DNA of 64,000 bases. It comes from Gammaproteobacteria bacterium (GTDB taxonomy: Bacteria > Pseudomonadota > Gammaproteobacteria > Nevskiales > Nevskiaceae). Location of the stretch: contig JAPLSB010000022.1 in NCBI GenBank assembly GCA_026398875.1, positions 1 to 64,000 on the forward strand, written 5' to 3'. The notes below the pieces were generated by a model. The model was given only the letters and a program-made list of their open reading frames with translations. It did no database searches and was not told the DNA's origin. Position 1 is the stretch's first letter, and each line of letters opens with the position of its first letter. This document shows, one piece after another, positions 6,395 to 35,182 of the stretch. The position numbers were made by a program, and so were the translations under genes.

Positions 6395-6679
6395 CTAGGC
6401 TGCGCGTGGAAGAAGCATAGGTCCGAGGTAGTACGCCGTCAGCAGCAGTGCAGTGACGGCGATCAGCCAACCCTCGATGATCCGCCGCCACAGTGGCGGC
6501 GCATGGCGCAACTCCATGAAATCGAGCACCACGAGTCGTGCCTTGATCCATGTGATGCCAAAGGTCACCGCACCAGCAGCAAGCCCAATCCCCCCTTCGA
6601 CGCCGACCCAGAACGTGGTTGCCGTTGCCAGCACCAGGATCAGCCAGGTGCGATGCGGGTTCTGCAGGATGGCCGGCAT
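6395..6679 (-). CDS. Cytochrome c oxidase subunit IV-like small membrane protein (NorF-type)
   Basis: A 94-residue protein with three hydrophobic segments (about residues 12-28, 30-46 and 70-86). It contains the pattern TWLILVLATATTFWVGV then VVLDFMELRHAPPLWRRII, typical of prokaryotic COX4/NorF-like subunits. It starts at 6679, 8 bp after the subunit III-like gene, so the two are co-transcribed. NorE/NorF pairs accompany nitric oxide reductase or haem-copper oxidases, but no catalytic subunit lies in this window. Its role is therefore inferred as an accessory to an oxidase encoded elsewhere. Confidence 0.75.
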   Translation of the reverse strand: MPAILQNPHRTWLILVLATATTFWVGVEGGIGLAAGAVTFGITWIKARLVVLDFMELRHAPPLWRRIIEGWLIAVTALLLTAYYLGPMLLPRAA

Positions 6680-6687
6680 CGTCGTGA

Positions 6688-7287
6688 TCAACGCAGCAGG
6701 TAAAGCAGTGGAAACAGGAAAATCCAGAGCAGATCGACCAGATGCCAGAAGCTGGCGCCCGATTCGATGCCGCGCATGTTGCCGCTGTGATAGCGACCGT
6801 TGCGGGCATTGCTCCAGAGCACGATCAGCACCACGGTCCCGCCAACGACATGACCGAGATGGATCATCGTCAGCGCAAAGTAGAAATTGAAGAAGGTATC
6901 GGTATTCAGCGAGATGCCGGCAGCGAACTTGGCTGAATACTCGAAGTACTTGATCACCATGAAGCCGAACCCGAGCACGATCGCACCCGCCAGATAGCGC
7001 GGTACGACCTGAGGCCGATCGGCGCGCGCCGCGCGCACGGCACTGACAACCGCCCATGAACTCGTCAGCAGCAGCAGCGTATTGATGACACCCAGCGAGC
7101 GGTCCAGCGTTCGTTGCGAGGCATCGAACACGGCTGGCTCCATCGCGCGATAGCCCACGTAGGCCACGAAGAACATGCCGAAGGTCAACAGCTCGGCAAG
7201 GATCAGGAACCACAGATCGGGGTCACCGGGCAGATGACGTCCGGCCTTGTCAGTATCCAAGGCTGGCGCAGTCAGTTCGATGGGCAT
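6688..7287 (-). CDS. Cytochrome c oxidase subunit III-like protein (NorE-type)
   Basis: About 199 residues from the ATG at 7287 (MPIELTAPALDTDKAG). It has five hydrophobic helices and the family features PGDPDLWFLILAELLTFGMFF near the N-terminus, FALTMIHLGHVVGGTVVL, and FWHLVDLLWIFLFPLLYLLR at the C-terminus. This five-helix type is the NorE/CyoC-like branch of the subunit III family. An upstream in-frame ATG at 7413 would add 42 residues that are not family-like and overlap the next gene. The pair with the subunit IV-like gene lacks subunits I and II here. Confidence 0.85.
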   Translation of the reverse strand: MPIELTAPALDTDKAGRHLPGDPDLWFLILAELLTFGMFFVAYVGYRAMEPAVFDASQRTLDRSLGVINTLLLLTSSWAVVSAVRAARADRPQVVPRYLAGAIVLGFGFMVIKYFEYSAKFAAGISLNTDTFFNFYFALTMIHLGHVVGGTVVLIVLWSNARNGRYHSGNMRGIESGASFWHLVDLLWIFLFPLLYLLR

Positions 7288-7372
7288 GTCGCGTTCATTC
7301 CAGACATCGGTTCCGGCGCTCGCTGGCGCGGACCAGCTTGGTCCGCGCCAGCGAAACGCCACGATTACCGGA

Positions 7373-8113
7373 TCAGGCCGTGGCGAGGCGACCTGCCGCT
7401 GCCGGCTCGGCAACGCTCATCCGGCGACGGATTTCCTTGATCATGAAGACGCTGGCGGTGGAGTACCAGCACAGCCAGCAGAAGTACGGGAAGTAGAAGC
7501 TCAGCACACCGCTCCATGCGAACGGACCATCCTTCATCACGCCCGTCAGGCTGGCCGGGAAGAAACTGATGCCGCACCAGATCGTCAGGTAGCAGACCCA
7601 CCGCGGAAACAGCGGCACCTTGCTCTTGTCCGCGAGGCCGACCAGCGCAGCGGCGACCATCTGCAGCGTCGTGCAGGCGTACTGCAGATCGATGCACAGC
7701 CAGCCGGTATCGGTCATCAGCTGGAAGGTTTCGGGGCTCGCTTCCGGGCGGAAGGCGGCAACAGCCCAGAACATGGCGCTGAACGACACCACCATCACCG
7801 TCAGCGCGCCTCCAATCAGCTGCAGATACGACAGGATCGGCATGTTCTTGCCTTCGATGCGTGACATCTGGCCCGCCAGCACGCAGCTCCATGGCATGTA
7901 GAGACAGACCGTGATCATCGAGATGATGAAACCAAGGCGAATTTCACCGAGGTTGTCGAGATAGCGCGTCTTCAGCACTTCCGGCGCCAGTGACGGCGAT
8001 GGATTCGGGAAGTTATGGCCGAACCCGAGCCAGAAGATGATGAAGGTGATGACGAACGCCGGACCGCACCAGGCGCTGATCAGTTGATACCGCAAGCTGG
8101 TTTTCTCATCCAT
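7373..8113 (-). CDS. Unknown multi-pass inner-membrane protein
   Basis: About 246 residues from the ATG at 8113 (MDEKTSLRYQLISAW; an in-frame ATG lies 9 bases upstream). Six or so hydrophobic segments alternate with short loops, for example CGPAFVITFIIFWLGFGH, LGFIISMITVCLYMPW and FSAMFWAVAAF. No catalytic motif was recognised. It lies between the NorE-like gene and the MarR gene on the same strand, 67 bp from the MarR stop, and is probably controlled by that MarR. Similar proteins seem to accompany catabolic clusters, but no function can be assigned. Confidence 0.7.
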   Translation of the reverse strand: MDEKTSLRYQLISAWCGPAFVITFIIFWLGFGHNFPNPSPSLAPEVLKTRYLDNLGEIRLGFIISMITVCLYMPWSCVLAGQMSRIEGKNMPILSYLQLIGGALTVMVVSFSAMFWAVAAFRPEASPETFQLMTDTGWLCIDLQYACTTLQMVAAALVGLADKSKVPLFPRWVCYLTIWCGISFFPASLTGVMKDGPFAWSGVLSFYFPYFCWLCWYSTASVFMIKEIRRRMSVAEPAAAGRLATA

Positions 8114-8180
8114 TTCTCGCACCCTGCTGTAGAGTCGATCGCTGTCGACGTTGGTTATTGATGGGGACCGCGCTGCATCG

Positions 8181-8708
8181 TCAAGCCGCCGAACTCATCG
8201 CGCGCGCACTGTTGTCGAGCGACACGATCAGCTTGCGCAGCAGCCGATCGAGCAGACGAAACTCTTCGTTGCTCAAGCCCGAGAACGCGCGCTCCAGTGG
8301 CTCGACCATCCTGGGCACGATCTCGCGGACGCGCTTGCGGCCAGCGGCGGTGATCGCGATCTCATGGCGCCGTGCGTCGCGCGCGTGCACGCTGCGCGTC
8401 ACCAGTCCGTCCTGCACCAGCTCTTCGACGATCCGCGTGGTGTTCGCGCGACTGGTGCCGATCATTTCGCTGAGCTCGCTGGGGGCTGCCATGCCCTTCT
8501 CGCTGGCCACCAGCAGGCACAGCGCGTGGAAGGCGTGCTCGCTGGTGCCCAGCGAACGGAATACCGGCTCGAAGAAGTTGCCCATTCCGAAGGCACTGAT
8601 GCGGATCAGGCGAACCATGACCGTCGGCGCCATCGGCATGTCGGGCAAGGCCCGCGTCATGCGCGGCGTGCTCGATTCGACAGCGGACAGGCGCTCGATA
8701 CCCTTCAT
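8181..8708 (-). CDS. MarR-family transcriptional regulator
   Basis: A 175-residue protein with the MarR winged helix (about residues 60-140): SELSEMIGTSRANTTRIVEE is the recognition region and TRSVHARDARRHEIAITAAG the beta-wing with its DxR signature. MarR dimers usually repress their own operon and release DNA on binding a phenolic or lipid ligand. A perfect 8-bp inverted repeat lies 12 bases upstream of its ATG, and the membrane-protein and NorEF-like genes follow downstream. It therefore probably regulates itself and that unit. Confidence 0.92.
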   Translation of the reverse strand: MKGIERLSAVESSTPRMTRALPDMPMAPTVMVRLIRISAFGMGNFFEPVFRSLGTSEHAFHALCLLVASEKGMAAPSELSEMIGTSRANTTRIVEELVQDGLVTRSVHARDARRHEIAITAAGRKRVREIVPRMVEPLERAFSGLSNEEFRLLDRLLRKLIVSLDNSARAMSSAA

Positions 8709-8719
8709 GTGATCTACCG

Positions 8720-8739
8720 ATAGTTCAGCGGTGAACTAT
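8720..8739. promoter_or_regulatory. Probable MarR operator palindrome
   Basis: ATAGTTCA-GCGG-TGAACTAT, a perfect 8-bp inverted repeat with a 4-base spacer, sits 11 bases before the MarR start codon. Length, symmetry and AT-rich ends match the 16-20 bp operators bound by MarR dimers. It is in position to block transcription of the MarR gene. Confidence 0.7.
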
Positions 8740-8801
8740 ATGGTCAGCGCATAGGCTGCTGAATGCAAGCAGTTTTGACGAACGCCGGACTTGCCGCCGC
8801 T

Positions 8802-9971
8802 TCAGCCCTTCAGCAGCTTCTTGGCCAGACTCCAGCGATGCACCTCGCTCGGGCCGTCGTAGATCCGGAACGGGCGGATGTCTCGGAAGATCCGTTCGAC
8901 GATCGTTTCGCCAGTCACGCCGCTGCCGCCGAGCACCTGCACGCTGCGATCGACGACTGCCCAGGTCTTCTCCGAGCAGATCACCTTGGCGCGGCTCGAT
9001 TCGAAGTTGGCGCGCGCCGCCCCGCCCTCTTCACGGTCGAGGATGTCGGCGCAGTAGAGGATCGCCATTCGCGCCAGATGCAGATCCATGTCGTTGTCGG
9101 CAAGCATGAAGCCGACCCCTTCGTGATCGCCGAGCCGCTTTCCGAACGCCTGCCGACGGCGCGCATAGTCCAGCGCCACGTCATGGGCGCGCCGGGCAGC
9201 GCCGAGCCAGCGCATGCAATGCGTCAGTCGCGCCGGGGCCAAGCGGATCTGCGCGTAGCGAAAGCCTTCGCCGAGCTCGCCAAGCACGTCCTCCGCCGGC
9301 ACCCGCAGGTCGCAGAACCGCACCACGCAATGACCGCCGGCGAAGCAGCGGTCGAGCGAGTCCATGGTTCGCTCGATCTCGATGCCCGGGCGATCCATAT
9401 CGGCCAGGAACATCGTCGCCCGACCATCCTCGAGCCGCGCCATGATGATCGCGAAAGCCGCACCTTCGGCACCGGTGATGAACCACTTGGTGCCATTGAT
9501 GACGTAGTCGCCGCCATCGCGGACCGCGGTGGTCATCAGCATCGATGGATCGGAGCCGGCACCCGGTGCCGGCTCGGTCATCGCGAAACAGGAACGTGTC
9601 CGACCGGCCACCAGCGGCGCCAGCCAGCGCATCTTCTGCGCCTCGGTGGCCACCACTTCCATCAGGTGGATGTTGCCCTCGTCCGGCGCATGGATGTTCA
9701 TCGCCACCGGACCCAGCGGCGAATAGCCGGCTTCCTCGAAGACGATGGCCTTCTCGATGTGGTTCAGGTGCAGGCCGCCGAGGGCCTTCGAGGCATGGAC
9801 GGTCAGCAGGCCGGCATCGCGAGCGCGGGCGAGCAGTTCGGCACGCAGGTCTTCGCTCGGACCGTGGTCGGTCTGGCGCGCATCGCGCTCGTACGGCATC
9901 ACCTCGTCGGCGATGAAACGACGGGTACGTGCCCGCAAGTCGAGCAGCGCGGGAGTCAGCTGGAAATTCAT
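8802..9971 (-). CDS. ACAD10/11-type acyl-CoA dehydrogenase (LvaC-like)
   Basis: A 389-residue flavoprotein from the ATG at 9971 (MNFQLTPALLDL). Acyl-CoA dehydrogenase signatures: CFAMTEPAPGAGSDPSML (FAD/substrate loop), GTKWFITGAEGA, and the C-terminal arm IYDGPSEVHRW. At the place where short/medium-chain enzymes have the catalytic Glu (Y-E-G-T), this protein has Y371-D372-G-P. That D-G-P-x-E-V-H pattern and the HCMRWLGAARRA segment resemble human ACAD10/11 and bacterial LvaC, which act on 4-phosphoacyl-CoA. It lies downstream of, and on the same strand as, two APH-type kinase genes, supporting that role. Ordinary beta-oxidation remains possible. Confidence 0.85.
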   Translation of the reverse strand: MNFQLTPALLDLRARTRRFIADEVMPYERDARQTDHGPSEDLRAELLARARDAGLLTVHASKALGGLHLNHIEKAIVFEEAGYSPLGPVAMNIHAPDEGNIHLMEVVATEAQKMRWLAPLVAGRTRSCFAMTEPAPGAGSDPSMLMTTAVRDGGDYVINGTKWFITGAEGAAFAIIMARLEDGRATMFLADMDRPGIEIERTMDSLDRCFAGGHCVVRFCDLRVPAEDVLGELGEGFRYAQIRLAPARLTHCMRWLGAARRAHDVALDYARRRQAFGKRLGDHEGVGFMLADNDMDLHLARMAILYCADILDREEGGAARANFESSRAKVICSEKTWAVVDRSVQVLGGSGVTGETIVERIFRDIRPFRIYDGPSEVHRWSLAKKLLKG

Positions 9972-10056
9972 GATCGCGGGGTCCGGTCGGTGCGGCGGCA
10001 ACGATAGCGCGCAGCAGCGACACGGACCATGGATCGGGTGCCGGCCCTCGGCGCAC

Positions 10057-10593
10057 TCAGCGCGCGATCAAGGTCTCCACTGCCGGCAGTGCGGCTGCCG
10101 GGCCTTCCCAGCCCTGCAGCGCAACCCAGGCCCGTTCGCGCAGCAACTGTGCCTCGGCATGGGTCATCACGGTGGTATTGATGCTGCGCAATGCCGCTGC
10201 ATCGGCGGTCGTCGCCGCTGCCGTGATCAGCGCGCCGACCCGCTCGCGCAGCAGGCTGTTCGCCGCTTCGATCTCGGCTGGCTCGGCGCCGGCGCGCGCC
10301 AGAAGCGCCCGCGCGTCGGCGGCGGCCTCGGTCAGGGCCTGGCGTGCTGCAGCGGCTTCCGTGATGGTCGCCGCCTGCGTCAGCAGTTGATCAGACAGCG
10401 CGACATAGCTGACGAGTTCATGGCGGTCATAGCGGTACTGCAGCGGCAGCCGCTGCGCCATCAGATGCAGCATGCCGACCACTAGCTGCCCCTGCTCCAG
10501 GGCCAGCTTGTTGGCCGGATCGACGGCCGGCAGCACCACATCGGTCAGCGACTTGATCAGCGCCGGAATCTGGAACGAAGGACGCAGTTCCAT
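10057..10593 (-). CDS. Small partner protein A of the APH-like kinase (unknown family)
   Basis: A 178-residue, Ala-rich, mainly helical protein without signal peptide. Its ATG shares one base with the kinase A stop (TGATG), and a GGAGG lies 7 bases ahead inside the kinase gene, so the two are translationally coupled. It is about one-third identical by eye to the protein at 13817-14353, which also follows a kinase gene. Shared features are SLTDVVLPAVDP, KLALEQGQL and the C-terminal LLRERAWVALQGWE. The DVVLPA-start and kinase coupling recall LvaB, the small subunit that assists the 4-hydroxyvaleryl-CoA kinase LvaA, but the protein is longer and homology is unproven. Confidence 0.75.
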   Translation of the reverse strand: MELRPSFQIPALIKSLTDVVLPAVDPANKLALEQGQLVVGMLHLMAQRLPLQYRYDRHELVSYVALSDQLLTQAATITEAAAARQALTEAAADARALLARAGAEPAEIEAANSLLRERVGALITAAATTADAAALRSINTTVMTHAEAQLLRERAWVALQGWEGPAAALPAVETLIAR

Positions 10594-11792
10594 CAGAGCA
10601 CCTCCGCCATCTGGCTGCGCAGCTCGTCGAGCAGCGAGTAGGCAATGCCGGTGATCCATGCCACCAGCACGTCCTGGTGGGTCTTGCCGTTGCGCGGTGC
10701 GCGGTAGCCGGTGGCCAGCACGATCGCGACCGCCTTGTAGTTGTTGAAGATGTCGTAGTAGCGCATGCGCAGCGGATCGACCTTCAGACCGGAAGCCTGC
10801 TCGTAACGGGCAACGAAATCAGCCATCGGCAGGAAGCCGCCGATCAGGAAGGTCTTGCCGTCCTCGGCCAGATGCCCGAACGGGCGCTTGGCGCACCACG
10901 ATAGGTCCTCGTGACGATCGCCGAGATAGGCCAGCTCCCAGTCCAGCCAGGCGCTGATCTGCAGATCGTCCTCGGTGTACAGGAAATTGCCGAGCCGGTA
11001 GTCGCCGTGGATCACCGAGACATGATCGACCGGCGGCATGTTCCGGCGCAGCCAGGCCATCGTCAGCCGCATCAGCGGCACATCTTCATTGGCATCCTCT
11101 TCCCAGACCCGCTCCCAGTGGTTCAGCGCCCATTCCAGCGCCTGTGTGCCGGGCGCCGGCCGGTCGTAGGCGGACAGGTCCGCACGCTGCCAGTCGAAGC
11201 GATGCGTGGCGGCCAGGTGATCGACGAATTGCTGGCCCAGCGTTTCACGGACCTGTGGCGGCATGAAGGTACCGACACCGGAGACGCCGCTGCTGGAGGC
11301 CGACGGCTTGGTCACGCCTTCAGCGAAGCCGTAGACGATTGCCGGGTACGGCAGATATTCGCCACGCGCGTCGATCCAGTAGGTCGGCGGCACCGGCACC
11401 ACGCCTTCCAATGCCTTGATGATCTGGAACTCGCGCAGCCGACTGGTTTCGGTGATTGCCTCGGATGGCTCCATGCGCAGCACCAGCGGCGTCGACACCG
11501 CGCCGGCACCGGGCGGCGTCCAGTCGAGCGTGAACGCCATCTGCAGCTTCGACGCGCCACCGGACAGCCAGCGGCAGTCGCGCACCGTGAACGGTGTCGC
11601 AAGCTGCGTCTTCAGCAGCGCTTCGGTGCCGGCCTGCAACTGCGCCAGGCTCACCGGCGCGTAGGGCGGTCCGGCGCGGCGTTCGAGCTTGCGGGTCAGC
11701 ACCCGGTCGATCTCGGCCTCGCACGGGAAGCGCCGCCGCAACTCGGCGATCCACTCGGGAGACGGACGGTTCTTGTCCAGCACTGCGGCCAT
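10593..11792 (-). CDS. APH-fold phosphotransferase A, candidate hydroxyacyl-CoA kinase
   Basis: A 399-residue protein with the aminoglycoside-phosphotransferase/choline-kinase fold. Visible motifs: the nucleotide-loop-like RWLSGGASKLQM (about 74-85), catalytic IHGDYRLGNFLY with H262-G-D264 and N269, and metal-binding WLDWELAYLGD with D284. The family includes LvaA and the N-terminal domain of ACAD10/11, which phosphorylate 4-hydroxyacyl-CoA. Antibiotic phosphorylation is unlikely given the catabolic context. GAGGAG precedes the ATG by 7 bases. A paralogue, kinase B, lies at 14355-15551. Both belong to the operon that ends with the ACAD10/11-type dehydrogenase. Confidence 0.85.
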   Translation of the reverse strand: MAAVLDKNRPSPEWIAELRRRFPCEAEIDRVLTRKLERRAGPPYAPVSLAQLQAGTEALLKTQLATPFTVRDCRWLSGGASKLQMAFTLDWTPPGAGAVSTPLVLRMEPSEAITETSRLREFQIIKALEGVVPVPPTYWIDARGEYLPYPAIVYGFAEGVTKPSASSSGVSGVGTFMPPQVRETLGQQFVDHLAATHRFDWQRADLSAYDRPAPGTQALEWALNHWERVWEEDANEDVPLMRLTMAWLRRNMPPVDHVSVIHGDYRLGNFLYTEDDLQISAWLDWELAYLGDRHEDLSWCAKRPFGHLAEDGKTFLIGGFLPMADFVARYEQASGLKVDPLRMRYYDIFNNYKAVAIVLATGYRAPRNGKTHQDVLVAWITGIAYSLLDELRSQMAEVL

Positions 11793-11833
11793 TGCTGCGC
11801 TCCTCGTTCTTGTTGTCGATGCCGCTTGCGCCG

Positions 11834-12802
11834 CTAGCAGCGCGCCCGGATCGCGTCACGATGGCGAGTCAGGTAGGCGCGGCTCAGCCCGAGCTGCTGC
11901 ACGCCGTAACCCAGCTCGCCATCGCAGTTCACGCGCATCAGGCTCTGCACGTAGCTGTTCGATGGATAGGGCGCCCAGTAGCAGGCGTTGAGCGCCGAGT
12001 AGCTCATGCGCAGGTGCTTGCCGCGAACATCGACCACCTCCAGCTCGCCGCCCATGGGCACCGCCTTGCGGTACTGCTGCGTACCGCGCGCCTCACGAAT
12101 GCCGTAGGTCGCGCCGTCCTCCATCACGTAGCCGCTGACCAGCTTGCCGAAGTCGTTGGTTCGGGCCAGGTCGTGAGCAACGAACAGATGTGCGGTCAGC
12201 CGCTCGCCGAAGCTCGCGTGCCACCAGATCACCGAACTGTTGTCGCGTTCCGGCCGCGTGCCCCAGCTGCGATCACCGGTATCGACGCAGTCGACGTCGT
12301 GATGCTGGCCGCGCACGGTCAGGCGGCCCTTGATCCGGTAGGTCACGTCGTAATGGCCGGACCACGCGGTATCCCAGGCGCCGCCATGACGGGCAGCAGC
12401 CAGCGGGTCCTGCGCAGGATCATTGAGGTCGTAGGGCTCGTGCAGCGCGACGAAATCCAGCTCGAAGCGGGTGTCGTCGATCCCTTCGTAGCGGACGCGG
12501 TAATGCTTCACCGGATCAACCGCCGTGATCGTCAGCCCGTTCGGCAGCGTGAAGTCGAGCAGCGACTTCGGACACGGCAGATGCTGCTGGTTGTCGATGT
12601 ACAGCTGCTCTTCCCAGAGATCGGTGATCCGGTCGTGCAGCGAAATGTCGCAGGCGCAGACGCCGAGCATCGGCCGGGTGACCACGTAGACGATGCCGCC
12701 AATCGTCGTGCCCGGCACATGGAACGGCAGCGCAATCGTTTCCACCCATTGCCAGTGGGAATCCGGCCGGAAATGGAACTCGGCATCCTGCGGCTTGATC
12801 AT
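11834..12802 (-). CDS. CrtC/AttH-like lipocalin-fold protein A
   Basis: A 322-residue protein from the ATG at 12802 (MIKPQDAEFHF), with AGGAGA 8 bases upstream. It has no signal peptide and is rich in predicted beta-strands. The clearest motif is DTGDRSWGTRPE, matching the D-x-SWG motif of the hydroxyneurosporene synthase (CrtC)/AttH superfamily, where it lies in the double-barrel core. The neighbour at 12841 carries the same motif (ARDHSWGTRDW). Inference: a hydratase or a lipid/terpenoid-binding protein acting with the flanking kinases. Its exact chemistry is unknown. It belongs to the group listed in domain databases as DUF7064/7065, from memory and not checked. Confidence 0.65.
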   Translation of the reverse strand: MIKPQDAEFHFRPDSHWQWVETIALPFHVPGTTIGGIVYVVTRPMLGVCACDISLHDRITDLWEEQLYIDNQQHLPCPKSLLDFTLPNGLTITAVDPVKHYRVRYEGIDDTRFELDFVALHEPYDLNDPAQDPLAAARHGGAWDTAWSGHYDVTYRIKGRLTVRGQHHDVDCVDTGDRSWGTRPERDNSSVIWWHASFGERLTAHLFVAHDLARTNDFGKLVSGYVMEDGATYGIREARGTQQYRKAVPMGGELEVVDVRGKHLRMSYSALNACYWAPYPSNSYVQSLMRVNCDGELGYGVQQLGLSRAYLTRHRDAIRARC

Positions 12803-12840
12803 CGGCCCGTCTCCTGTGCGACGACGCGACGGCGTTCCGT

Positions 12841-13776
12841 TCAGCCTTGCAGCGAGGCCATGTAAGCGAGGTAGTCGGTCGGCCACATGAATTCGGACCA
12901 GCCGACCGCTGCCTCGCCATCGATCGTGCAGCGCATTGCGCCTTCGACCAGCGAGCAGGTCGGCACCGGCGGCATCACCAGCGTGGCGAAGTACTCGCCT
13001 TCAACCCGCAGCTTGCGGCCGATGCTGTCGGTGACGGTCGCCGACAGGGTCTTCTGGTGATAGCGGGCATCGGTCGTGAAGTCGACGGCGACATCGACCA
13101 CTTCAGCAAACAGACCATCGCGATTGACGTAGCCGCGCAGCTCGCTGCGGCCACCGATCTCGATCTTCCAGAAGTGCAGCTGGGTGCCGGCGTTATAGGC
13201 ATGCAGCCACTTCCAGTGCTGCGGCTGCGCCCAGTCGCGGGTGCCCCAGGAATGGTCGCGCGCGCACAGCGTGTCGAACGGAAGCCGCCGGCCATCGACG
13301 GTGATCGTGCCGCGGATGCGGCCCGCCTGTTCAAGGCGATCGGTCGCCGCGAAGCGCGGGCAGCCGTCCGGATGGAAGCTGTACGCGTAGGCCGGCTGCA
13401 CCGCCTCGTAGGCGGCTTCGATGGTGACGCGCGCGGTCGACACCTTGAAGCGCGCGGTCTTCATCTGCAGGTCCTGCGACAGATACAGGTTGCCGACCTG
13501 CCAGTCGTCGAAGTTCTTTTCCGGCCCCATCGGCAGGCCATCGACCGCTTCGAACACCGGCGTGGCACCGATGCCCGGACCGTAGGCCGCGAGTGCCGAT
13601 CCGGCGAGGTTGTCCTTGGTCACCCAGGTGTAGACGAACGCGGCGATGCCATGCTCGGGCAGCGCGATCACGTAGGGGATCGATTCCCGCTCCAACGGCA
13701 GGTCGCGCAGCTTGTGGCGGCCGTCGTTGCTCGGGTCGAGGACAGGCAGAACGCGGGGCTGGGCAGGCATCGTCAT
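12841..13776 (-). CDS. CrtC/AttH-like lipocalin-fold protein B
   Basis: A 311-residue protein from the ATG at 13776 (MTMPAQPRVLPVLDPSNDG). Like the downstream neighbour it is beta-rich and carries the DHSWGTRDW motif (about two-thirds along). It also has the family-like end GEAAVGWSEFMWPTDYLAY. Overall similarity to protein A is low outside the motif, so the pair are old paralogues or distinct members that may form a heteromer. The stop lies 38 bp before the start of protein A. The central position between two kinase modules suggests both act on the same substrate. Confidence 0.65.
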   Translation of the reverse strand: MTMPAQPRVLPVLDPSNDGRHKLRDLPLERESIPYVIALPEHGIAAFVYTWVTKDNLAGSALAAYGPGIGATPVFEAVDGLPMGPEKNFDDWQVGNLYLSQDLQMKTARFKVSTARVTIEAAYEAVQPAYAYSFHPDGCPRFAATDRLEQAGRIRGTITVDGRRLPFDTLCARDHSWGTRDWAQPQHWKWLHAYNAGTQLHFWKIEIGGRSELRGYVNRDGLFAEVVDVAVDFTTDARYHQKTLSATVTDSIGRKLRVEGEYFATLVMPPVPTCSLVEGAMRCTIDGEAAVGWSEFMWPTDYLAYMASLQG

Positions 13777-13816
13777 GGTCGGGCTCTCGGCAGGAAGGAG
13801 GGGAGGCGTACGGGTT

Positions 13817-14353
13817 TCAGCGGGCCAGCAGGTCGGCAAGCGGCGGGACCGCTTTCGGGTCGGGTTCCCAGCCCTGCATCAGCAGCATCGAACGCTCGCG
13901 CAGCAGCTGTTGCTTGGACATCGCCAGCACCGCCGTCTGCACCGTGGCCTGGCTGGCGGTATCGCCATCGCGATGGACTTCGGTGACCAGCACGCCAGTC
14001 GCGGCGCGCATCGCGCGCACAGCGGCCTCGACATCGGCCGGCGAACTGCGGGCAGCATCAAGGGTGCGGCCGGCCGCGAGCGTCGCATCGTCGAGTGCGG
14101 CAACGGCCGCCTGCGTGCCGGCCCCGCCTTGCGCGGCGTTCGCCAGTTCCCCGCTGGTCGCGATCAGCCGAGCGAGTTCGTCGCAGTCGAACGCGAACTG
14201 CACCGGCAACTGCTGCGCCAGCAGCGTCAGCAGGCCGATCGCCAGCTTGCCCTGCTCAAGCGCAAGCCGGTTATCCGGATCGATCGCCGGCAGCACAACA
14301 TCACCGAGAGCCTTGATCACGGCCTGCAGCTGGATCTGCGGTCTCATCTGCAT
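13817..14353 (-). CDS. Small partner protein B of the APH-like kinase
   Basis: A 178-residue protein of exactly the same length as its paralogue at 10057-10593. Shared patterns are ALGDVVLPAIDPDNRLALEQ near the N-terminus and LLRERSMLLMQGWEPDPKAV near the C-terminus. The ATG lies one base after the kinase B stop codon, so translation is coupled. The repeated kinase-partner arrangement argues for a physical complex. The family is not recognised with certainty; similarity of role to LvaB is an inference from gene order. Confidence 0.75.
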   Translation of the reverse strand: MQMRPQIQLQAVIKALGDVVLPAIDPDNRLALEQGKLAIGLLTLLAQQLPVQFAFDCDELARLIATSGELANAAQGGAGTQAAVAALDDATLAAGRTLDAARSSPADVEAAVRAMRAATGVLVTEVHRDGDTASQATVQTAVLAMSKQQLLRERSMLLMQGWEPDPKAVPPLADLLAR

Positions 14354-14354
14354 G

Positions 14355-15551
14355 TCAGCTTCCTTGCTCGATCAGGCTGCGCATCTCGTCGAGCAGCATC
14401 GGCCCGATTCCGATCAGCCAGGTGACCAGCACGTCCTGATGCGTCTTGCCGCCGCTGGCAGCACGGTAACCCGTGGCCAGACTTAAGCAGGCCATCATGT
14501 AAGCGTTGTAGACCTTGTACCAATGCAGCGTCTGCGGGTTGACCGTCAGGCCGGTGGCCTGCTCGTAACCGGCGATGAACTCGGCTTCCGGCAGCAGGCC
14601 GGAGGTCAGGAATGTGGTGCCGTCCTCGGCCAGCGAGCCGAATGCGCGGCTGGTGGTCCAGGCGAGATCCTGATGGCGATCGCCGATGCGGCCCAGCTCC
14701 CAGTCCAGCCATGCACTGATCTGTGCGTCGGGCTCGGTGAACAGGAAGTTGCCGAGCCGGTAGTCGGAGTGAACGATCACCGCGCGGTCGAGCACCGGCA
14801 GGTGGGCGCGCAGCCATGCTGCGGCAAGACGCATCAGCGGTACGTCCTCGTCGGAATCCTCTTCCCAGACGCGTTCCCACCAGTTCAGGCCCCACTCGGC
14901 GCACTGCGTGCTGCCCACCGCAGGGATGTCGAAGGCATCGAGCCCGCGGCCGGTGAAATCGGTCGTGTGGATCTTCGCCAGATGGGCAACGAACTGCGGT
15001 GCCAGCTGCTTGCGCAGCGCGGCCGGCAGCTGCGTGCCGAGGCCGCTGACACCACTGGCCGCCGCACTCGGCTTGGTGACGCCGGGCACGTAGCCGTAGA
15101 TCAATGCCGGGTATGGCAGGTACTCGCCTTCCGAATCGCACCAGTAGACCGGCGGCACCGGCACGATGCCCGCCATCGCGCGAATCAGCTGGAATTCCCG
15201 CTTGCGGCTGGTTTCGACGATCGACTCGCTGGGCTCCATGCGCAGCACCATGGCCGTGCACGACAGGCCGTCCTGCGGGTGCTGCCATTCAAGCGTGTAG
15301 GCCATCTGCAGCTTCGACGCACCGCCGGACAGCCAGCGGGCATCGCGCAGTTCGTACGGCGTGCTCAGCTCGGCATCGAGCAGCGCGCGCACGCCGTCGA
15401 CCAGCGTGTCCAGCGCCAGCGGCTTGAAGCCGGGCCCGGCGCGACGCTGCAGCTTGCGCGTCAACACGCGATCGATCTCGCGCTCGGTCGGAAAGCGCTG
15501 GCGCAGTTCGCCGATCCAGGCCGCTGTGGGCTGGCGCTTGTCGGGGTGCAT
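14355..15551 (-). CDS. APH-fold phosphotransferase B with altered Brenner motif
   Basis: A 398-residue paralogue of kinase A, about half identical by eye: both share RWLSGGASKLQMA, LRMEPSE and GVTKPSA segments. The catalytic loop reads VHSDYRLGNFLF: H261-S262-D263 in place of the usual H-G-D, with the catalytic Asp and the N268 metal ligand kept, and WLDWELGRIGD (D283) present. So it is probably active, perhaps with changed rate or acceptor. The ATG at 15551 has GAGGAG 7 bases upstream. It is the first gene of the operon, divergent from the TetR gene across a 219-bp region with an operator-like palindrome. Confidence 0.85.
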   Translation of the reverse strand: MHPDKRQPTAAWIGELRQRFPTEREIDRVLTRKLQRRAGPGFKPLALDTLVDGVRALLDAELSTPYELRDARWLSGGASKLQMAYTLEWQHPQDGLSCTAMVLRMEPSESIVETSRKREFQLIRAMAGIVPVPPVYWCDSEGEYLPYPALIYGYVPGVTKPSAAASGVSGLGTQLPAALRKQLAPQFVAHLAKIHTTDFTGRGLDAFDIPAVGSTQCAEWGLNWWERVWEEDSDEDVPLMRLAAAWLRAHLPVLDRAVIVHSDYRLGNFLFTEPDAQISAWLDWELGRIGDRHQDLAWTTSRAFGSLAEDGTTFLTSGLLPEAEFIAGYEQATGLTVNPQTLHWYKVYNAYMMACLSLATGYRAASGGKTHQDVLVTWLIGIGPMLLDEMRSLIEQGS

Positions 15552-15658
15552 CGAAGACTCCTCGTTTGCCGCGATTGCCCGTCGCCGGGTCAGTGACACC
15601 CTCTGCAAGCCGCGCGGACGCTGCGGGCGGGGTGTCTGCGGAAATCATCAGCCACGAT

Positions 15659-15673
15659 TTGACACGATGTCAA
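15659..15673. promoter_or_regulatory. Candidate TetR operator between the kinase operon and tetR
   Basis: TTGACA-CGA-TGTCAA, a perfect 6-bp inverted repeat with a 3-base centre, lies in the divergent intergenic region, 108 bp from the kinase B start and 98 bp from the TetR start. Additional partly matching half-sites (AGACA, TGACA) follow within 30 bases. Such short-spaced palindromes between divergent genes are typical TetR-family targets. The TTGACA half could also act as a -35 element. Confidence 0.5.
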
Positions 15674-15770
15674 TTTTCGCTAGACAGAATGACAATATCG
15701 GCCAAACTGTCCATCCGGCGAACCGCGATGGCTTCGCAGCATTCAACCCGAACTTCCAGCAGGCCCCGAG

Positions 15771-16412
15771 ATGGCGCAGATCGCCCCCCGCCCGACCCGA
15801 CGCACGCGCGCCAGACTCGGCGACCAGCCGAAGCCGTCGATCGAAGACCGGCTGCTGGCCGCGATGGAACGGCTGCTGGACCAGGGCCACCGTTTTGCCG
15901 CACTCAGTGTCGAACAGCTGACCGGCGAAGCCGGCATCGCCCGCGGCACGTTCTATCTGCACTTCCGCGACAAGGGCGAACTGGTGGCTCGGCTGATGAG
16001 CCAGGTCACCGAGGAAATCATCGCCTCGACCGGCACCTGGATGAGCGACGCTCACGCTGCCCGTCCTCCGGAACTGCAGCAGGCGCTGGTCGGCATGGTG
16101 GCCACGTTCAAGAAGCATCAGGCGATCCTGGCCGCCGTCAACGACACCGCGCCGTACGACCAGACCGTCGCCAGCCTGTACAAGACCATGGTCGATCGCA
16201 TCTGCGCGCAGAGCCGTGTGTCGCTCGGCATCATCCAGAACAAGGGCCTGAGCCGGCCCGGCGCGACCGACGATGTCGCCGAAGTGTTGAGCTGGATGAT
16301 CGTCATGTACTGCGCGCGTTTCGTTGGCGAGCGCAATGGCCCGGACCTTGCGCGTCTCGCCGAATCGCTGGGCTACATCAGCGCCAGCACCGCCTTCGCC
16401 GATGGGGCGTGA
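15771..16412 (+). CDS. TetR-family transcriptional regulator
   Basis: A 213-residue protein. The N-terminal HTH (about residues 25-70) has the classic LTGEAGIARGTFYLHFRDKG recognition segment. The C-terminal ligand-binding domain is divergent, as usual. It is transcribed away from the kinase/CrtC-like/dehydrogenase operon and shares its upstream region with it, so the simplest reading is a local repressor released by a substrate or CoA-thioester intermediate. The N-terminal 20 residues are rich in Arg and Pro. Confidence 0.9.
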   Translation: MAQIAPRPTRRTRARLGDQPKPSIEDRLLAAMERLLDQGHRFAALSVEQLTGEAGIARGTFYLHFRDKGELVARLMSQVTEEIIASTGTWMSDAHAARPPELQQALVGMVATFKKHQAILAAVNDTAPYDQTVASLYKTMVDRICAQSRVSLGIIQNKGLSRPGATDDVAEVLSWMIVMYCARFVGERNGPDLARLAESLGYISASTAFADGA

Positions 16413-20107: not shown

Positions 20108-20887
20108 TCAGTGAATCAGCAGACGACTGGCCAGCCGTTCGCGCTGGCGGTCATCAAGGCCGATGGCCTGCGTCAGATAGGCATCGACCGAGCCATGGTC
20201 AGCGGCGATCTTGCCGAGTGCCGCCGCCAGATAGTCCTCGCGCGCCGCGATGATCGCCGCCAGCATCTCCGGCGGCGCGCTGGCGCCGAGCAGTCCGTGC
20301 AGCAAGCCGGCGACCTTGTCGCGCAGCGAATCGCGGCTGCTGGCGTCGTTGGAGCGCAGGTAGTCGGCCAGCACCGCATCCTCGGCGACACCAACCGCGT
20401 TCAGCAGCATCGCCACGACGAAGCCGGTGCGGTCCTTGCCGGCGGTGCAGTTGACGACCAGCGGCAGGTGATCGCCATGTTCGTCAAGCAGCAGCGCGAA
20501 CACCTGCTTCAGCACCGGCACGCAGACCGTCGGCAGATCGCGGTACAGATGGCGCATCAGCGCAGCGGCGCCGTCCGCCGTGGCATTGCCGCGCAGCTCG
20601 CGAACCAGGTCCGGCATCAGCACGCGGATGTCGGTGGCCACCGCAAGATTCAGCACCCGCGGTGCGGCACCCGCAGGCCAGCGATGCGGCCGCTGCAGCC
20701 GCTCGCCATCGCTGCGCAGATCGCAGCAGACGCGCGGCGACAGGCCCGCCAGCCGTTGCAGATCGTCGGCATTGAGGGCATCCAGCGCATCGGAGCGATA
20801 GACGACACCGGCGCGGGTCCGGCGGCCATCACCGGTTGGCAGGCCGCCGATATCGCGGAAGTTCGGCGCAGTCTTGAGCAGGGTCAT
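20108..20887 (-). CDS. Protein tyrosine/serine phosphatase-like protein
   Basis: A 259-residue protein of the bacterial tyrosine-phosphatase group (PF13350-like). It starts APNFRDIGGLPTGDGRRTRAG and has the P-loop VNCTAGKDRTGF (C-x5-R) with the catalytic Cys and Arg. An upstream Asp that could be the general acid is present in the FALLLDEHGDH region. Members dephosphorylate phosphotyrosine or phosphoinositides. Its place between a monooxygenase reductase and a crotonase is unusual. It may be regulatory or act on a small phosphorylated metabolite; neither is shown by the sequence. Confidence 0.85.
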   Translation of the reverse strand: MTLLKTAPNFRDIGGLPTGDGRRTRAGVVYRSDALDALNADDLQRLAGLSPRVCCDLRSDGERLQRPHRWPAGAAPRVLNLAVATDIRVLMPDLVRELRGNATADGAAALMRHLYRDLPTVCVPVLKQVFALLLDEHGDHLPLVVNCTAGKDRTGFVVAMLLNAVGVAEDAVLADYLRSNDASSRDSLRDKVAGLLHGLLGASAPPEMLAAIIAAREDYLAAALGKIAADHGSVDAYLTQAIGLDDRQRERLASRLLIH

Positions 20888-22066: not shown

Positions 22067-23233
22067 TTACGCGTACTTCCAGATGCCGGCCGGCAGATCA
22101 CGAGCCGGGTCCGGCCGGTTCAGCTCATGCCAGCCGGCGCGCTCGTTCTCGCGACGGGCGATCTCGCGCTCCTGCGGGCTGGCGTAGTGCTCGTCCCAGT
22201 GCTTGAGCAGCGGCTTGATCATCATGAAGAACAGCGGCGGCACCAGCGCCAGCAGCACCACCAGCAGGAACTGCGGCTGCAGCGGGCCATTGGTGTCCGG
22301 CACCAGCGCGTAGAACGGCTTGTAGCTGTCTTCGTGATGGCCGGCGTGGTTGGTGATTTCCAGCGCCAGGATGCGGGTCAGCGGCGTGATGTGGTTCCAG
22401 GTGTGGTGGTTCTCGAAGCGGCCAGGCGTGGCCGACACCAGGCCATAGTGGTTCACGTAATTGAACACTTCCAGCAGCATGCGCGGACCGAAGAACAGCG
22501 TGGCCGATGCCAGGCCCAGACCCTTCCAGCCGCCGAGCGCGAACAGCACGCCAAGGAAAACGCCGAAATAGGTCGCCTTGAACACCCAGGCATTGCGCGG
22601 GTCGTACCACTTGCGGCCGCGCTTGGTCCACATCATCTTTTCAAGGTGATAGCTCTCCTTCCACTGCGCCGGGAAGGTGCGCAGGAAGTGGCCGTAAACG
22701 GTGTCGCCACGGCGCGCGTAGTCCGGGTCGTCCGGCGTGGCGACGCGCATGTGATGCGTCACCACATGGGTGATCTCGCGCCACGGATCGAACACCAGGC
22801 ACTGGCCGATGCGGCCGAGCCAGCGCAGGAACAGACCTTCGCGGTGGAACAGCTCGTGCACCGGCGGAGCGCCGATCACGAAGCCGATGAACAGCGTGCT
22901 GACGAACGCGCCGACCGCCGACGCGGTGGTCGCGAAGTGGTCATGCCCGACCAGCCACGAATAGAACAGGATGTTGACGAAGCTGGCCAGCACGGTGATC
23001 GACACGATCACGTCGTAGATCCAGGCGTGGCGCTGGGCGCGGATCGAGTAGTCCGGCTTCAGGAAGGCATCGAAGAACAGCACGCCCAGCAGCAGCGCCA
23101 GGCCGATCCAGGTGAAGTTGCCGCCCATCCACAGCCCGTAGGCGTGGCTGGACAGGATCACTGGCGAAAGGAGGTACTTGAAGTAGTCGAGGACGTTCTC
23201 GTTCGAGGTCTGCGTCGTTGCGGTTGCGCTCAT
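22067..23233 (-). CDS. AlkB/XylM-type membrane diiron hydroxylase 1
   Basis: A 388-residue integral-membrane protein with about six hydrophobic helices and the full set of histidine boxes of the fatty-acid-desaturase/hydroxylase superfamily: HELFH (126-130), HVVTHH (156-161), the NYVNHYGL motif and the NHAGHHEDSYKPF box. The HYG motif is the hallmark of the alkane/xylene hydroxylase branch, as opposed to desaturases. It inserts an oxygen atom at a terminal or benzylic methyl. The reductase follows; a MalT/AlkS-like regulator precedes it by 88 bp, as AlkS controls alkB in Pseudomonas. The substrate is not deducible. Confidence 0.93.
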   Translation of the reverse strand: MSATATTQTSNENVLDYFKYLLSPVILSSHAYGLWMGGNFTWIGLALLLGVLFFDAFLKPDYSIRAQRHAWIYDVIVSITVLASFVNILFYSWLVGHDHFATTASAVGAFVSTLFIGFVIGAPPVHELFHREGLFLRWLGRIGQCLVFDPWREITHVVTHHMRVATPDDPDYARRGDTVYGHFLRTFPAQWKESYHLEKMMWTKRGRKWYDPRNAWVFKATYFGVFLGVLFALGGWKGLGLASATLFFGPRMLLEVFNYVNHYGLVSATPGRFENHHTWNHITPLTRILALEITNHAGHHEDSYKPFYALVPDTNGPLQPQFLLVVLLALVPPLFFMMIKPLLKHWDEHYASPQEREIARRENERAGWHELNRPDPARDLPAGIWKYA

Positions 23234-32857: not shown

Positions 32858-33967
32858 ATGAGCACCAGCATTGCGGCGCGCGCCGCCATCGTGCGTGAAG
32901 TCGGCGCACCATGGACCATCGAGAACGTCGAAGTCAGCGCCCCGCGCGCCGATGAAGTGCTGATCCGCATGGTCGGCACCGGCATCTGCCACACCGATAC
33001 CGCCTGCCGCACCGGCTTCCCGGTGCCGATGCCGATCGTGCTCGGCCATGAAGGCGCCGGTGTCGTCGAAGCGGTCGGCTCGGCGGTGACCAAGGTCAAG
33101 GTCGGCGACCATGTGGTGCTGAGCTTCGATTCCTGCGGCGACTGCCTGAACTGCAGGAAGGATCAGCCGGCGTACTGCTACACGTTCTACCCGCGCAACC
33201 TCGCCGGCGTCCGCGCCAGCGATGGCTCGGCCCAGATCACCCAGGCGGGCCAGCCGATCAATGGCCTGTTCTTCTGCCAGTCGTCGTTCGCGACCTACGC
33301 CCTCGCCCGCGAACTGAACACCGTGGTGATGGACAAGTCGCTGCCGCTGGACATCCTCGGTCCGCTTGGCTGCGGCGTCCAGACCGGCGCCGGTGCTGCG
33401 GTCAATGCGCTGGGCATCCTGCCGCGCGAATCGCTGGCGATCTTCGGAGGTGGCGCGGTGGGCTTGAGCGCGCTGCTCGGTGCCCGTGCCGTCGATGCCG
33501 GCGTGGTGATCGTTGTCGAACCGAACGCGGCCCGCCGCGCGCTGGCGCTGGAACTCGGTGCCACCCACGTGATCGATCCGAAGGAAACGCCGGACACGCT
33601 GGGCAGGATCAAGGAACTGGTCGGCGGCGTGAACTACGCGCTCGACACCACCGGCATCCCGCCGGTGATGGCCGCGGCGGTCGAAGCGCTGCTGCCGAAG
33701 GGCGTGCTCGGCCTGCTCGGCGTGCCGCCGCCCGAAGCGACCGTGCCGGCCAACATGATGAGCATGCTGGTGCGTGGCATCACCGTGCGCTACATCGTCG
33801 AAGGCGACGCCGATCCGCAGGAATTCATTCCGCGCATGGCTGCCTGGTACAAGGCGGGCCGCTTCCCGTTCGACAAGCTGATCGGCAAGTTCCCGTTCGA
33901 TCAGATCAACGAAGCCGCGCATGCGGCCGAGAGCGGCAAGGTGATCAAGCCGGTGCTGATCTTCTGA
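32858..33967 (+). CDS. Zinc-dependent alcohol dehydrogenase (aryl/allyl-alcohol type)
   Basis: A 369-residue medium-chain dehydrogenase from the ATG at 32858 with GAGGAG 8 bases upstream. Catalytic zinc ligands: Cys in GICHTDTACR, HE in LGHEGAG and a later Cys in GPLGCGVQTGAGA. The four structural-zinc Cys lie in DSCGDCLNCRKDQPAYC. The NAD motif is GGGAVGLSALLGA. It resembles aryl-alcohol and geraniol/benzyl-alcohol dehydrogenases, which fits oxidation of the alcohol made by the convergent hydroxylase. A TATGGTA-type site upstream is shared with the dehydratase operon. Confidence 0.92.
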   Translation: MSTSIAARAAIVREVGAPWTIENVEVSAPRADEVLIRMVGTGICHTDTACRTGFPVPMPIVLGHEGAGVVEAVGSAVTKVKVGDHVVLSFDSCGDCLNCRKDQPAYCYTFYPRNLAGVRASDGSAQITQAGQPINGLFFCQSSFATYALARELNTVVMDKSLPLDILGPLGCGVQTGAGAAVNALGILPRESLAIFGGGAVGLSALLGARAVDAGVVIVVEPNAARRALALELGATHVIDPKETPDTLGRIKELVGGVNYALDTTGIPPVMAAAVEALLPKGVLGLLGVPPPEATVPANMMSMLVRGITVRYIVEGDADPQEFIPRMAAWYKAGRFPFDKLIGKFPFDQINEAAHAAESGKVIKPVLIF

Positions 33968-34063: not shown

Positions 34064-35182
34064 TCAGCAGCCGACCGTCTGCGTCGACGGCCACTGCTGC
34101 TCGGTCTCGAACCAGTCTTCCCAGCCCGCCGCCAGGTTTTGCTCACGGGCCAGCTTGCGCTCGCCGGGCGTGGCGAATTCCATGTCCCAGCGCTTCAGTG
34201 CCGGCTTGATGATGGCCGCTTCCCACAGCGGCGGAATCAGCGCGGCAAGGAAGCAGACGAACACGCTCGGCAGCTCGATGCCTTCCCGGTGCGGAATCAG
34301 CTTGTAGTAAGGCGCATAGGAATTCATGTGGTGGTCGGCGTGGTTGGTCAGCTCGAAACCGAGCACGCGGGTGGCAACACCAAGATGGTTCCAGACATGA
34401 CGGCGACCGACCGGCGTACCCGGCACGCGGGTCTGGCCGTAGTGCTGGAAGTAGCTGAACGATTCGGTCCAGGTCTTGGCGATGAACATCGCACCGAGCA
34501 CGCACAGCACGCCGGTCAGGCCCGCCATCGCGAAGATGATGCTCTGGAACACGATCTGGATCGCCACGATCTTCCACACGCGATGGCGCCAGTTCCAGCC
34601 CGACAGGCCGCGCTTGCGCAGCACCATGCTCTCGGCCTTCAGCGCGTACGAGATCGTGCCCCAGACAGCTTTCGGCGTGAACTTGTAGATCGAGGTACCG
34701 CGCGGCGCCGTGCTCAGGTCATGCGGCGTCGAGACATCGATGTGGTGATAGATCACGTGCTCGATGTCGCGCATGCCGTCGAACAGCGTGAACTGGGCAT
34801 AGCGGCCGATGAAGCGGGCCAGACTGTCGCGCGAGTGGAACAGCTCGTGCTGGGCAGCAATGCCCGGCACCAGCGCCAGCCAGGCGGTGGACATCACGCC
34901 GCCGAACAGCTGCATGCCGCTCAGCGCTTCGATGTGCATGCGCCAGCCGAACGCGAGGAACAGCGCGATCGGACCGAGGCCGCCGAGGTACACCGGAATC
35001 GACGCCCAGAACGCCGAATTCATCTTGCGCACGCTGTAATCGCGCGGCAGCAGGAAATCGACCAGCACGACAGCAGGGAACGTCGCGAAACCAAACCAGA
35101 CGGCATCACCGCCGATCCAGAAACCGGCGAGACCGATCCCGATCAGGACCGTTGCTGCGTAGTACTTCAAATAATCTTTCAT
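34064..35182 (-). CDS. AlkB/XylM-type membrane diiron hydroxylase 2
   Basis: A 372-residue integral-membrane protein, related to but clearly distinct from hydroxylase 1. Histidine boxes: HELFH, EHVIYHH, the SYFQHYGQ motif and ELTNHADHHMNSY. Hydrophobic helices lie near the N-terminus and around the boxes. It probably hydroxylates a terminal or benzylic carbon. No reductase gene adjoins it, so it may share the reductase at 20971. It lies 59 bp after the MarR gene on the same strand, below the dehydratase genes. Confidence 0.9.
   Translation of the reverse strand: MKDYLKYYAATVLIGIGLAGFWIGGDAVWFGFATFPAVVLVDFLLPRDYSVRKMNSAFWASIPVYLGGLGPIALFLAFGWRMHIEALSGMQLFGGVMSTAWLALVPGIAAQHELFHSRDSLARFIGRYAQFTLFDGMRDIEHVIYHHIDVSTPHDLSTAPRGTSIYKFTPKAVWGTISYALKAESMVLRKRGLSGWNWRHRVWKIVAIQIVFQSIIFAMAGLTGVLCVLGAMFIAKTWTESFSYFQHYGQTRVPGTPVGRRHVWNHLGVATRVLGFELTNHADHHMNSYAPYYKLIPHREGIELPSVFVCFLAALIPPLWEAAIIKPALKRWDMEFATPGERKLAREQNLAAGWEDWFETEQQWPSTQTVGC

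Follow-up and report, generated by a model that had tools for sequence, protein, structure and literature searches.

A seven-gene operon of a Nevskiaceae gammaproteobacterium probably serving ATP-driven dehydration of hindered alcohols in terpenoid-type catabolism

What chemistry would be served by an operon that encodes two kinases, two small proteins, two CrtC-like proteins, and an acyl-CoA dehydrogenase (ACAD)? Such an operon lies in the window analyzed here, a 64,000-nucleotide stretch (positions 1 to 64,000 of contig JAPLSB010000022.1) from the 4.15-Mb genome of a gammaproteobacterium of the family Nevskiaceae. The first-pass annotation of the window had read it as a split and duplicated LvaA/ACAD10-11-like system for phosphorylated hydroxyacyl-CoA, and had placed its seven genes correctly: all run head to tail on the minus strand between 15551 and 8802, in the order kinase B, small2, CrtC2, CrtC1, kinase A, small1, and ACAD. 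Only short gaps separate the genes, and the region 8600-15900 yielded no terminator-like site against a chance expectation of 2.4, which is consistent with a single transcription unit as judged from the sequence. The six-gene run from kinase B to small1 was intact in all six same-genus loci fetched for comparison; the ACAD gene follows small1 in three of them, and in one of the other three (L035) the sequence ends ~1 kb behind small1. We propose that the operon probably drives the dehydration of hindered alcohols at the expense of ATP in terpenoid-type (isoprenoid) catabolism, using kinase/phospho-lyase pairs together with an LvaC-type step.

Evidence for this proposal comes from the CrtC-like proteins CrtC1 (11834..12802, minus strand) and CrtC2 (12841..13776, minus strand), both of which are predicted phosphate-eliminating lyases of the DUF7064/DUF7065 type. 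Both match DUF7064 (Pfam 8e-11 for CrtC1), and DUF7065 scores above its cut-off for CrtC2 and just below it for CrtC1; the two proteins are 27% identical over 164 aa and homologous by profile (hhalign probability 99.5%). For CrtC2, an AlphaFold2 (AF2) model based on 15 homologues (pLDDT 88) had chains of the 25-phosphosteroid lyase (25-PSL) as its first five solved-structure matches (Foldseek 1.7e-12 to 1.4e-11), with a Z score of 24.2 over 272 aligned residues at 18% identity. The CrtC2-family profile also found 25-PSL by sequence (E 8.5e-7), with the match ending in an R-D-x-S-W-G-x-R stretch, and the 25-PSL chains were its only PDB matches; a search of PDB sequences with the single CrtC2 protein returned only an unrelated chain (E 1.1). 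In CrtC1, the D-x-S-W-G-x-R stretch is invariant, and its lyase fold was assigned solely through the homology to CrtC2. Judged by fold, the CrtC-like proteins thus look like phosphate-eliminating lyases rather than the hydratases or binding proteins suggested earlier: the first solved match is such a lyase, although hydratases share the fold, and a mere binding role was rejected on the 25-PSL fold and profile matches. Given these matches of CrtC2, the operon seems to combine an LvaC-type phospho-acyl-CoA lyase with two pairs of kinase and phospho-lyase, of the kind that acts in the anaerobic dehydration of the cholesterol side chain.

The 25-hydroxysteroid kinase (25-HSK) of Sterolibacterium denitrificans adds a phosphate to a tertiary alcohol, and the loss of this phosphate to give an alkene was inferred to be the work of a second enzyme, a lyase; according to the available text of the same paper, the lyase gene was still unassigned in 2021, with no candidate beside the 25-HSK gene (PMC8449060). 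In searches of the open-licence literature, 25-PSL was named only in the 2021 and 2024 Journal of Biological Chemistry papers, as a proposed or putative enzyme, and its structures are in the PDB (9fzn, 9g2i, and 9g4c), the lyase structures carrying 2026 release dates. The window operon resembles this system in having a phosphotransferase-type kinase and a lyase of the same fold with the shared R-D-x-S-W-G-x-R stretch and, presumably, in its logic, the ATP-dependent dehydration of an isoprenoid tertiary alcohol. In contrast to S. denitrificans, its kinase and lyase genes are adjacent, form two pairs, and are joined by genes for a helical partner. That the cascade might also act on further isoprenoids or tertiary alcohols was proposed, in general terms, in a 2020 paper (PMC7411048). 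A much closer 25-PSL relative (phmmer E 4.2e-45) sits elsewhere in the window's own genome, on contig C3, adjacent to a further kinase (L003:4015-6245). That kinase matched no PDB chain at E<=0.01 and is therefore not a recognizable 25-HSK. By their sequences, the L003 genes may allow this organism to dehydrate steroid-like side chains as well.

The proposed lyases and this kinase family tend to occur together. Among 61 related genomes, DUF7064 was present in 18 of the 19 with the kinase family versus 3 of the 42 without it (p 1.8e-11, which is only a guide because the genomes share ancestry); the 19-genome set was cut at roughly E<=1e-90, and 56 of the 61 genomes show some APH match at E<=1e-10. 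Within the genus, the corresponding figures were 13/13 versus 2/5 (p 0.012). The DUF7064 matches in the window's own genome are CrtC1 and CrtC2 only, the more distant relative in L003 being missed by the model. A class-wide search for CrtC2 gave matches in 3 of 274 genomes, the window's own genome counted. We also surveyed 76 named kinase loci, in which presence was scored by tblastn with a limited query set, so that misses are possible, and some of which are short: in 43 of them, a CrtC-like gene was found no more than 8 kb from the kinase. Outside the genus, the type of the nearest kinase tended to follow the type of the lyase, with 10 rows for kinase type A and lyase type 1, 12 for B and 2, and two each for A with 2 and B with 1 (p 0.001; the same-genus loci L073-L077 and 10 rows of a third lyase type, c17, were left out, with several loci represented by more than one row). 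The gene order in Sphingopyxis macrogoltabida is CrtC2, kinase, small protein, CrtC1, alcohol dehydrogenase, tyrosine phosphatase, P450, and rubredoxin, and that in Rhodococcus opacus is CrtC1, kinase, and small protein.

Kinase A (10593..11792, minus strand; Pfam APH 9.9e-24) and kinase B (14355..15551, minus strand; Pfam APH 5.6e-23), the latter encoded by the first gene of the operon, have the APH fold and are 60% identical. Both keep the H-x-D-x-x-x-x-N and D-W-E motifs, intact as HGDYRLGN and LDWE in kinase A and as HSDYRLGN and LDWE in kinase B. In a 34-row kinase tree, from which the second Castellaniella kinase, with an in-frame stop within the stretch taken, was dropped, the LvaA-type rows formed a set of five (support 100/100) and the window kinases fell in a separate set of 20 (100/99), which speaks against the earlier description of them as LvaA-like. 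Kinase A and three further kinases, one from R. opacus and the others from a betaproteobacterium and a Sterolibacteriaceae bacterium (L078, L079), make up a 4-row set (100/97); kinase B belongs to an 8-row set (96/92), where its nearest rows by path are from Thauera terpenica, Solimonas, and Castellaniella defragrans. Since the two kinases fall in separate older groups with relatives in other phyla, a recent duplication of one kinase was rejected, and the sequences suggest that two old groups have been brought together rather than one gene freshly copied. The earlier description of the system as duplicated therefore calls for caution. The two small proteins are 41% identical to each other.

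The 178-residue proteins small1 (10057..10593, minus strand), directly behind kinase A, and small2 (13817..14353, minus strand), behind kinase B, are the putative partners of the respective kinases. Of 73 named loci, 63 have a small partner no more than 300 nt from the kinase, the three loci with <600 nt behind the kinase having been left out. The AF2 model of the small protein is all-helical (pLDDT 95), its fold found no match in the PDB at E<=0.001, and no Pfam family matched the sequences. Comparison with an LvaB-type profile of only seven rows gave an hhalign probability of 1.5% (E 0.033), and the equation of these proteins with LvaB was rejected for want of profile similarity, although a distant kinship may exist given so small a profile; the small proteins of a related cluster gave a probability of 60% (E 8.5e-5), which is suggestive only. 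Lva-type operons themselves carry a 118-119-residue gene directly behind the kinase (L070:6911-7270, DUF6285; L185:3901-4257). The lva-type cluster of Pseudomonas citronellolis was reported, in the available text, to be without LvaB (PMC6692424), and this short gene may have been missed there.

A terpenoid context is indicated by the monoterpene island of C. defragrans 65Phen. Kinase homologues occur in C. defragrans and T. terpenica, both of which mineralize monoterpenes (PMC4109377). The Castellaniella contig of 67,631 bases (68 genes) was compared with Tables 1 and 2 of that paper, and the CDM assignments given here follow gene order and length rather than accession. The contig order follows Table 1 from CDM25240 to CDM25302, except for the transposase CDM25247 and the short gene CDM25266 (uncalled); lengths agree exactly for ctmA (1698), ctmE (324), mrcC (888), CDM25260 (1356), and CDM25297 (1023), while the calls made for ctmB and mrcF deviate. 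A comparison of 60 window genes with the 68 of the contig gave 18 reciprocal best hits, including TetR, CrtC1, CrtC2, kinase B, small2, a MarR block, a phosphatase, a LuxR regulator, and a GeoA-like dehydrogenase. CrtC2 is 45% identical to C22:6522-7544 (1023 bp), which corresponds to CDM25297, and a transposon mutant in CDM25297 grows on acetate and not on limonene or β-myrcene (PMC4109377). Kinase B is 69% identical to the Castellaniella kinase C22:62393-63583 (L094:10001-11191). The two Castellaniella kinases correspond to CDM25241 and CDM25275, both annotated as "acyl-CoA dehydrogenase," and their peptides were reported only from phellandrene-grown cells (PMC4109377). By gene order, TetR, kinase, small protein, and CrtC1-type genes stand directly before ldi, the gene for linalool dehydratase-isomerase (LDI). 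The island differs from the window in that its parts are spread over several separate cassettes, in that neither LDI nor CtmAB is the best island match of any window gene, and in that it has no LvaC-type ACAD at E<=1e-55. In Castellaniella DSM 12141, the kinase taken as CDM25275 (L159:7735-9260) has an in-frame stop near the expected N-terminus, and the called frame (8202-9260) starts after the stop.

The last gene of the operon (8802..10001, minus strand; likely start 9971, giving a coding sequence of 8802-9971) encodes an ACAD-fold enzyme of LvaC type, predicted to be a phosphate-eliminating lyase for 4-phosphoacyl-CoA. Its best PDB match is ACAD11 (8v3u), and in the alignment to 8v3u it keeps the equivalents of mouse ACAD11 R626, H634, and R637 (HCMR), which hold the 4-phosphate, and of the catalytic aspartate D753 (PMC12440821). 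The stretch IYDGPSEVH contains the Y-D-G-P form seen by the first-pass annotation, a form common to LvaC-type enzymes. In a 27-row tree, 20 HCMR/HAMR rows formed one set (100/100) apart from ordinary ACADs, with the window ACAD inside an LvaC-type set of 14 rows (95/89) and, within that tree, a 10-row set (98/97); it is also 72% identical to the LvaC-type proteins in the Pseudomonas loci L185-L187, and at E<=1e-40 nothing else in its genome matches an ACAD10/11-type query. By these sequence comparisons, it is of LvaC/ACAD10-11 type and not an ordinary β-oxidation ACAD, in agreement with the earlier annotation. This makes a phosphorylated acyl-CoA step credible, and it is the part of the phosphorylated-hydroxyacyl-CoA reading that stood; LvaA-like kinases, LvaB-like partners, and hydratase CrtC-like proteins did not. 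The LvaC-type proteins compared here are only about one third identical to ACAD10/11-type ones, at odds with the published identities of LvaC to the ACAD10/11 domains (62% and 56%).

Comparison with the known LvaC and ACAD10/11 systems shows where this ACAD stands. The last two genes of the lva operon of levulinate-degrading pseudomonads encode a small protein and a symporter. The gene order in L185-L187 is regulator, kinase, 118-residue protein, ACAD, short-chain dehydrogenase/reductase (SDR), CoA ligase, small protein, and symporter, and it matches that of the lva operon from the regulator through the CoA ligase, as given in the available text (PMC6692424); loci L168-L172, fetched as possible lva operons, contained none. 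The window operon resembles LvaABC in its ACAD and in having a kinase gene followed by that of a small protein, and differs in the clade of its kinases, in partners that are not LvaB-like by profile, and in that its immediate neighbors do not include a sigma54 regulator, SDR, CoA ligase, or symporter. With ACAD10 and ACAD11 it shares the four phosphate-site residues and the kinase fold, but here the parts are separate polypeptides, and a CrtC-like part is not mentioned for ACAD10/11 in the accessible text of the two reports (PMC12440821, PMC11342911). Conservation of a kinase-partner-CrtC-ACAD order was not supported: an HCMR-type ACAD was found in only 3 of the 76 named kinase loci (L073-L075), all from near relatives, and a role as the conserved partner of the kinases was rejected for it. 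In three sister genomes the HCMR-type ACAD stands elsewhere than the kinase operon, with no LvaA-type neighbor in the two such loci read. A separate APH kinase of the window's own genome, ACAD10-like by eye, is encoded on contig C21 (L001:8189-9523). The locus, which includes an SDR gene at a distance of ~2 kb and a CoA ligase gene at ~4.5 kb, lacks an HCMR-type ACAD, and this kinase could also take the window ACAD as its partner.

We infer the substrates, the kinase-lyase pairing, the order of steps, and the roles of the small proteins as follows. Each APH-fold kinase, with its helical 178-residue partner, would phosphorylate a hydroxyl that is not directly oxidizable or dehydratable, most likely a tertiary or branched one, and the matching DUF7064/DUF7065 lyase would expel the phosphate to leave an alkene, as 25-HSK and 25-PSL do on the cholesterol side chain. 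CrtC1 would most likely be the lyase paired with kinase A and CrtC2 the one paired with kinase B, the two pairs acting on different alcohol positions or substrates of a terpenoid. The LvaC-type ACAD would remove a γ-hydroxyl as the CoA thioester, leading 4-phosphoacyl-CoA into β-oxidation.

Several observations weigh against this scheme. The CrtC1 profile matches 25-PSL weakly (E 0.017), and the CrtC-like proteins are only 14-18% identical to 25-PSL, which also separates the operon from the S. denitrificans system. For the CrtC2 model, AttH NE1406 (2ich) ties with 25-PSL (Z 23.9), and the fold is found in Diels-Alderases (CghA, Z 21.5) and kievitone hydratase (Z 20.8) too. Among the PDB matches of the kinases, 9fsg, which is possibly 25-HSK, ranks fourth and is no closer to them than 3ats, 9o56, or 3dxp. 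Counted over the 46 kinase loci with full flanks, the 30 of 76 without 8 kb on both sides being left out, a CrtC-like gene is within 8 kb in only 28, and the c17 lyase type accompanies kinase type B in eight rows and type A in two, so the pairing is not a simple two-by-two one. As for the island, a number of the 18 reciprocal hits involve broad families at 29-42% identity and carry little weight, the CDM25297 insertion may be polar on the genes behind it, and the lyase-like and small proteins CDM25297, CDM25273, CDM25240, and CDM25274 were undetected in the reported proteome (PMC4109377). LDI had no match at E 0.001 in the window's own genome in a search made without a positive control, and the substrate may therefore differ from that in Castellaniella. 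No reported activity was found for any protein of the CrtC-like/kinase subfamily.

The same evidence bears on other explanations of the operon. A purely lva-like route, in which the two kinases act on 4-hydroxyacyl-CoA as different isomers or chain lengths, the phosphate is eliminated by the ACAD, and the CrtC-like proteins are hydratases or carriers, is unlikely, if not without some plausibility: the ACAD is of LvaC type, has no second ACAD10/11-type match in the genome at E<=1e-40, and is co-directional with small1, behind which it begins after 55-85 nt, but the kinases lie outside the LvaA clade, the partners do not resemble LvaB, an HCMR-type ACAD was not found in 73 of the 76 kinase loci and stands elsewhere in the three sister genomes, and the CrtC2 fold is nearest to a phospho-lyase. 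We consider it quite unlikely that the CrtC-like proteins are hydratases, as are CrtC and kievitone hydratase, that make a tertiary alcohol from an isopropenyl or isopropylidene group, leaving the kinases to phosphorylate and only the ACAD to eliminate. The net reaction, a shift of the double bond into conjugation, would solve the isopropenyl problem of terpenoid acids, and the fold does match kievitone hydratase and AttH (best Foldseek values 7.8e-10 for a kievitone hydratase chain and 1.7e-12 for a 25-PSL chain; 2ich within Z 1 of 25-PSL). However, the top fold match and the only PDB profile matches are a phosphate-eliminating lyase, and most loci with a kinase and a CrtC-like gene were found without an HCMR-type ACAD, so that hydratases there would have no phosphate-eliminating enzyme nearby.

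Detoxification, with the kinases inactivating a toxic terpenoid or antibiotic and the remaining genes belonging to unrelated β-oxidation, is highly improbable. The APH fold and weak matches to aminoglycoside kinases would fit it, but the antibiotic-kinase family scores of the two window kinases (32 and 28 bits) are far below the cut-off of 205, and the regular small partner, the pairing with lyases, and the Castellaniella island speak for catabolism. An unlikely further role for the kinase/CrtC-like pairs is that of catabolic terpene isomerases or cyclases acting on monophosphates: a tertiary terpenol such as linalool or terpineol would be phosphorylated, and loss of the phosphate would steer the carbocation toward forming a new ring or a new double bond. 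If this were true, the Castellaniella cassette before ldi could supply the myrcene-to-limonene link that was noted as unexplained in the available text (PMC4109377).

The proposed dehydration operon is flanked by a divergent TetR-family regulator gene (15771..16412, plus strand; Pfam TetR_N 3.5e-8), whose product is a 45% reciprocal best hit to the TetR beside the Castellaniella kinase-small-CrtC-LDI cassette. An operator-like palindrome, TTGACACGATGTCAA (15659..15673), lies between kinase B and the TetR gene and is the only match to TTGACA(2-4)TGTCAA within the window. A form of it is present in 7/7 genus loci compared, the window included, and the core of the palindrome, GACACGATGTC, is also present upstream of a Castellaniella kinase gene. 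We suggest that the TetR regulator would control the operon via this conserved palindrome. A similar arrangement is seen in Mycobacterium tuberculosis, in the genes Rv3167c-Rv3168-Rv3169. Rv3168 is presumably an APH-type kinase, and both CrtC-like proteins match the Rv3169 model weakly (33-39 bits versus a cut-off of 150). A TetR gene there diverges from a two-gene operon, and neither a small partner nor an ACAD is mentioned in the accessible text (PMC5340868).

On the other side of the operon, a linked block (6395..8708, minus strand) encodes 94-, 199-, and 246-aa proteins and a MarR regulator; all four have their reciprocal best hits (50-58%) in a single uninterrupted block next to the same Castellaniella cassette. 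A tyrosine-phosphatase-family protein (20108..20887, minus strand; 41% reciprocal best hit to the island phosphatase), encoded ~4.5 kb from kinase B, is a possible partner: 19 of the 76 loci have such a gene no farther than 8 kb from the kinase, PF13350 is matched by a relative (L051:9837-10613), histidine phosphatases likewise stand in some lva-type operons, and the phosphatase may undo wrong phosphorylation. A GeoA-like (geraniol dehydrogenase-like) alcohol dehydrogenase (32858..33967, plus strand) is noted as context only; its reciprocal best hit, at 58%, is C22:34630-35751, which gene order marks as GeoA. By eye, 22067-23233 (no NCBIfam match) and 34064-35182 encode alkane-monooxygenase-like proteins, and similar genes recur in kinase loci, for example L099 (71%) and L066, where one is annotated alkane 1-monooxygenase; 35858-39267, again by eye, resembles a block for an activator ATPase and two subunits of the 2-hydroxyacyl-CoA dehydratase or benzoyl-CoA reductase type. 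Plasmid pISP1 of Sphingomonas sp. MM-1 (L067), typed as conjugative, carries kinase, small protein, CrtC2-like, and phosphatase genes ~6 kb from the lindane breakdown genes linA and linX. Contigs labeled "MAG: Klebsiella pneumoniae" (L080, L121, and L128) carry the kinase system as well, and their labels are probably wrong.

The single reactions proposed here are known; searches of the open-licence literature found no description of the joint operon, of a spread of the steroid-type pair to terpenoid catabolism, or of a role of DUF7064/DUF7065 proteins as phospho-lyases. Dehydration by phosphorylation and subsequent elimination is known from three separate cases, namely levulinate, mammalian 4-hydroxy acids, and cholesterol, and this operon brings both predicted types of phosphate-eliminating enzyme side by side. 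This suggests that the steroid-type pair is part of a broad family in terpenoid and hydrocarbon degraders of the Proteobacteria and Actinobacteria. It also gives a testable role to DUF7064/DUF7065 and to monoterpene-island genes labeled "hypothetical" or, misleadingly, "acyl-CoA dehydrogenase."

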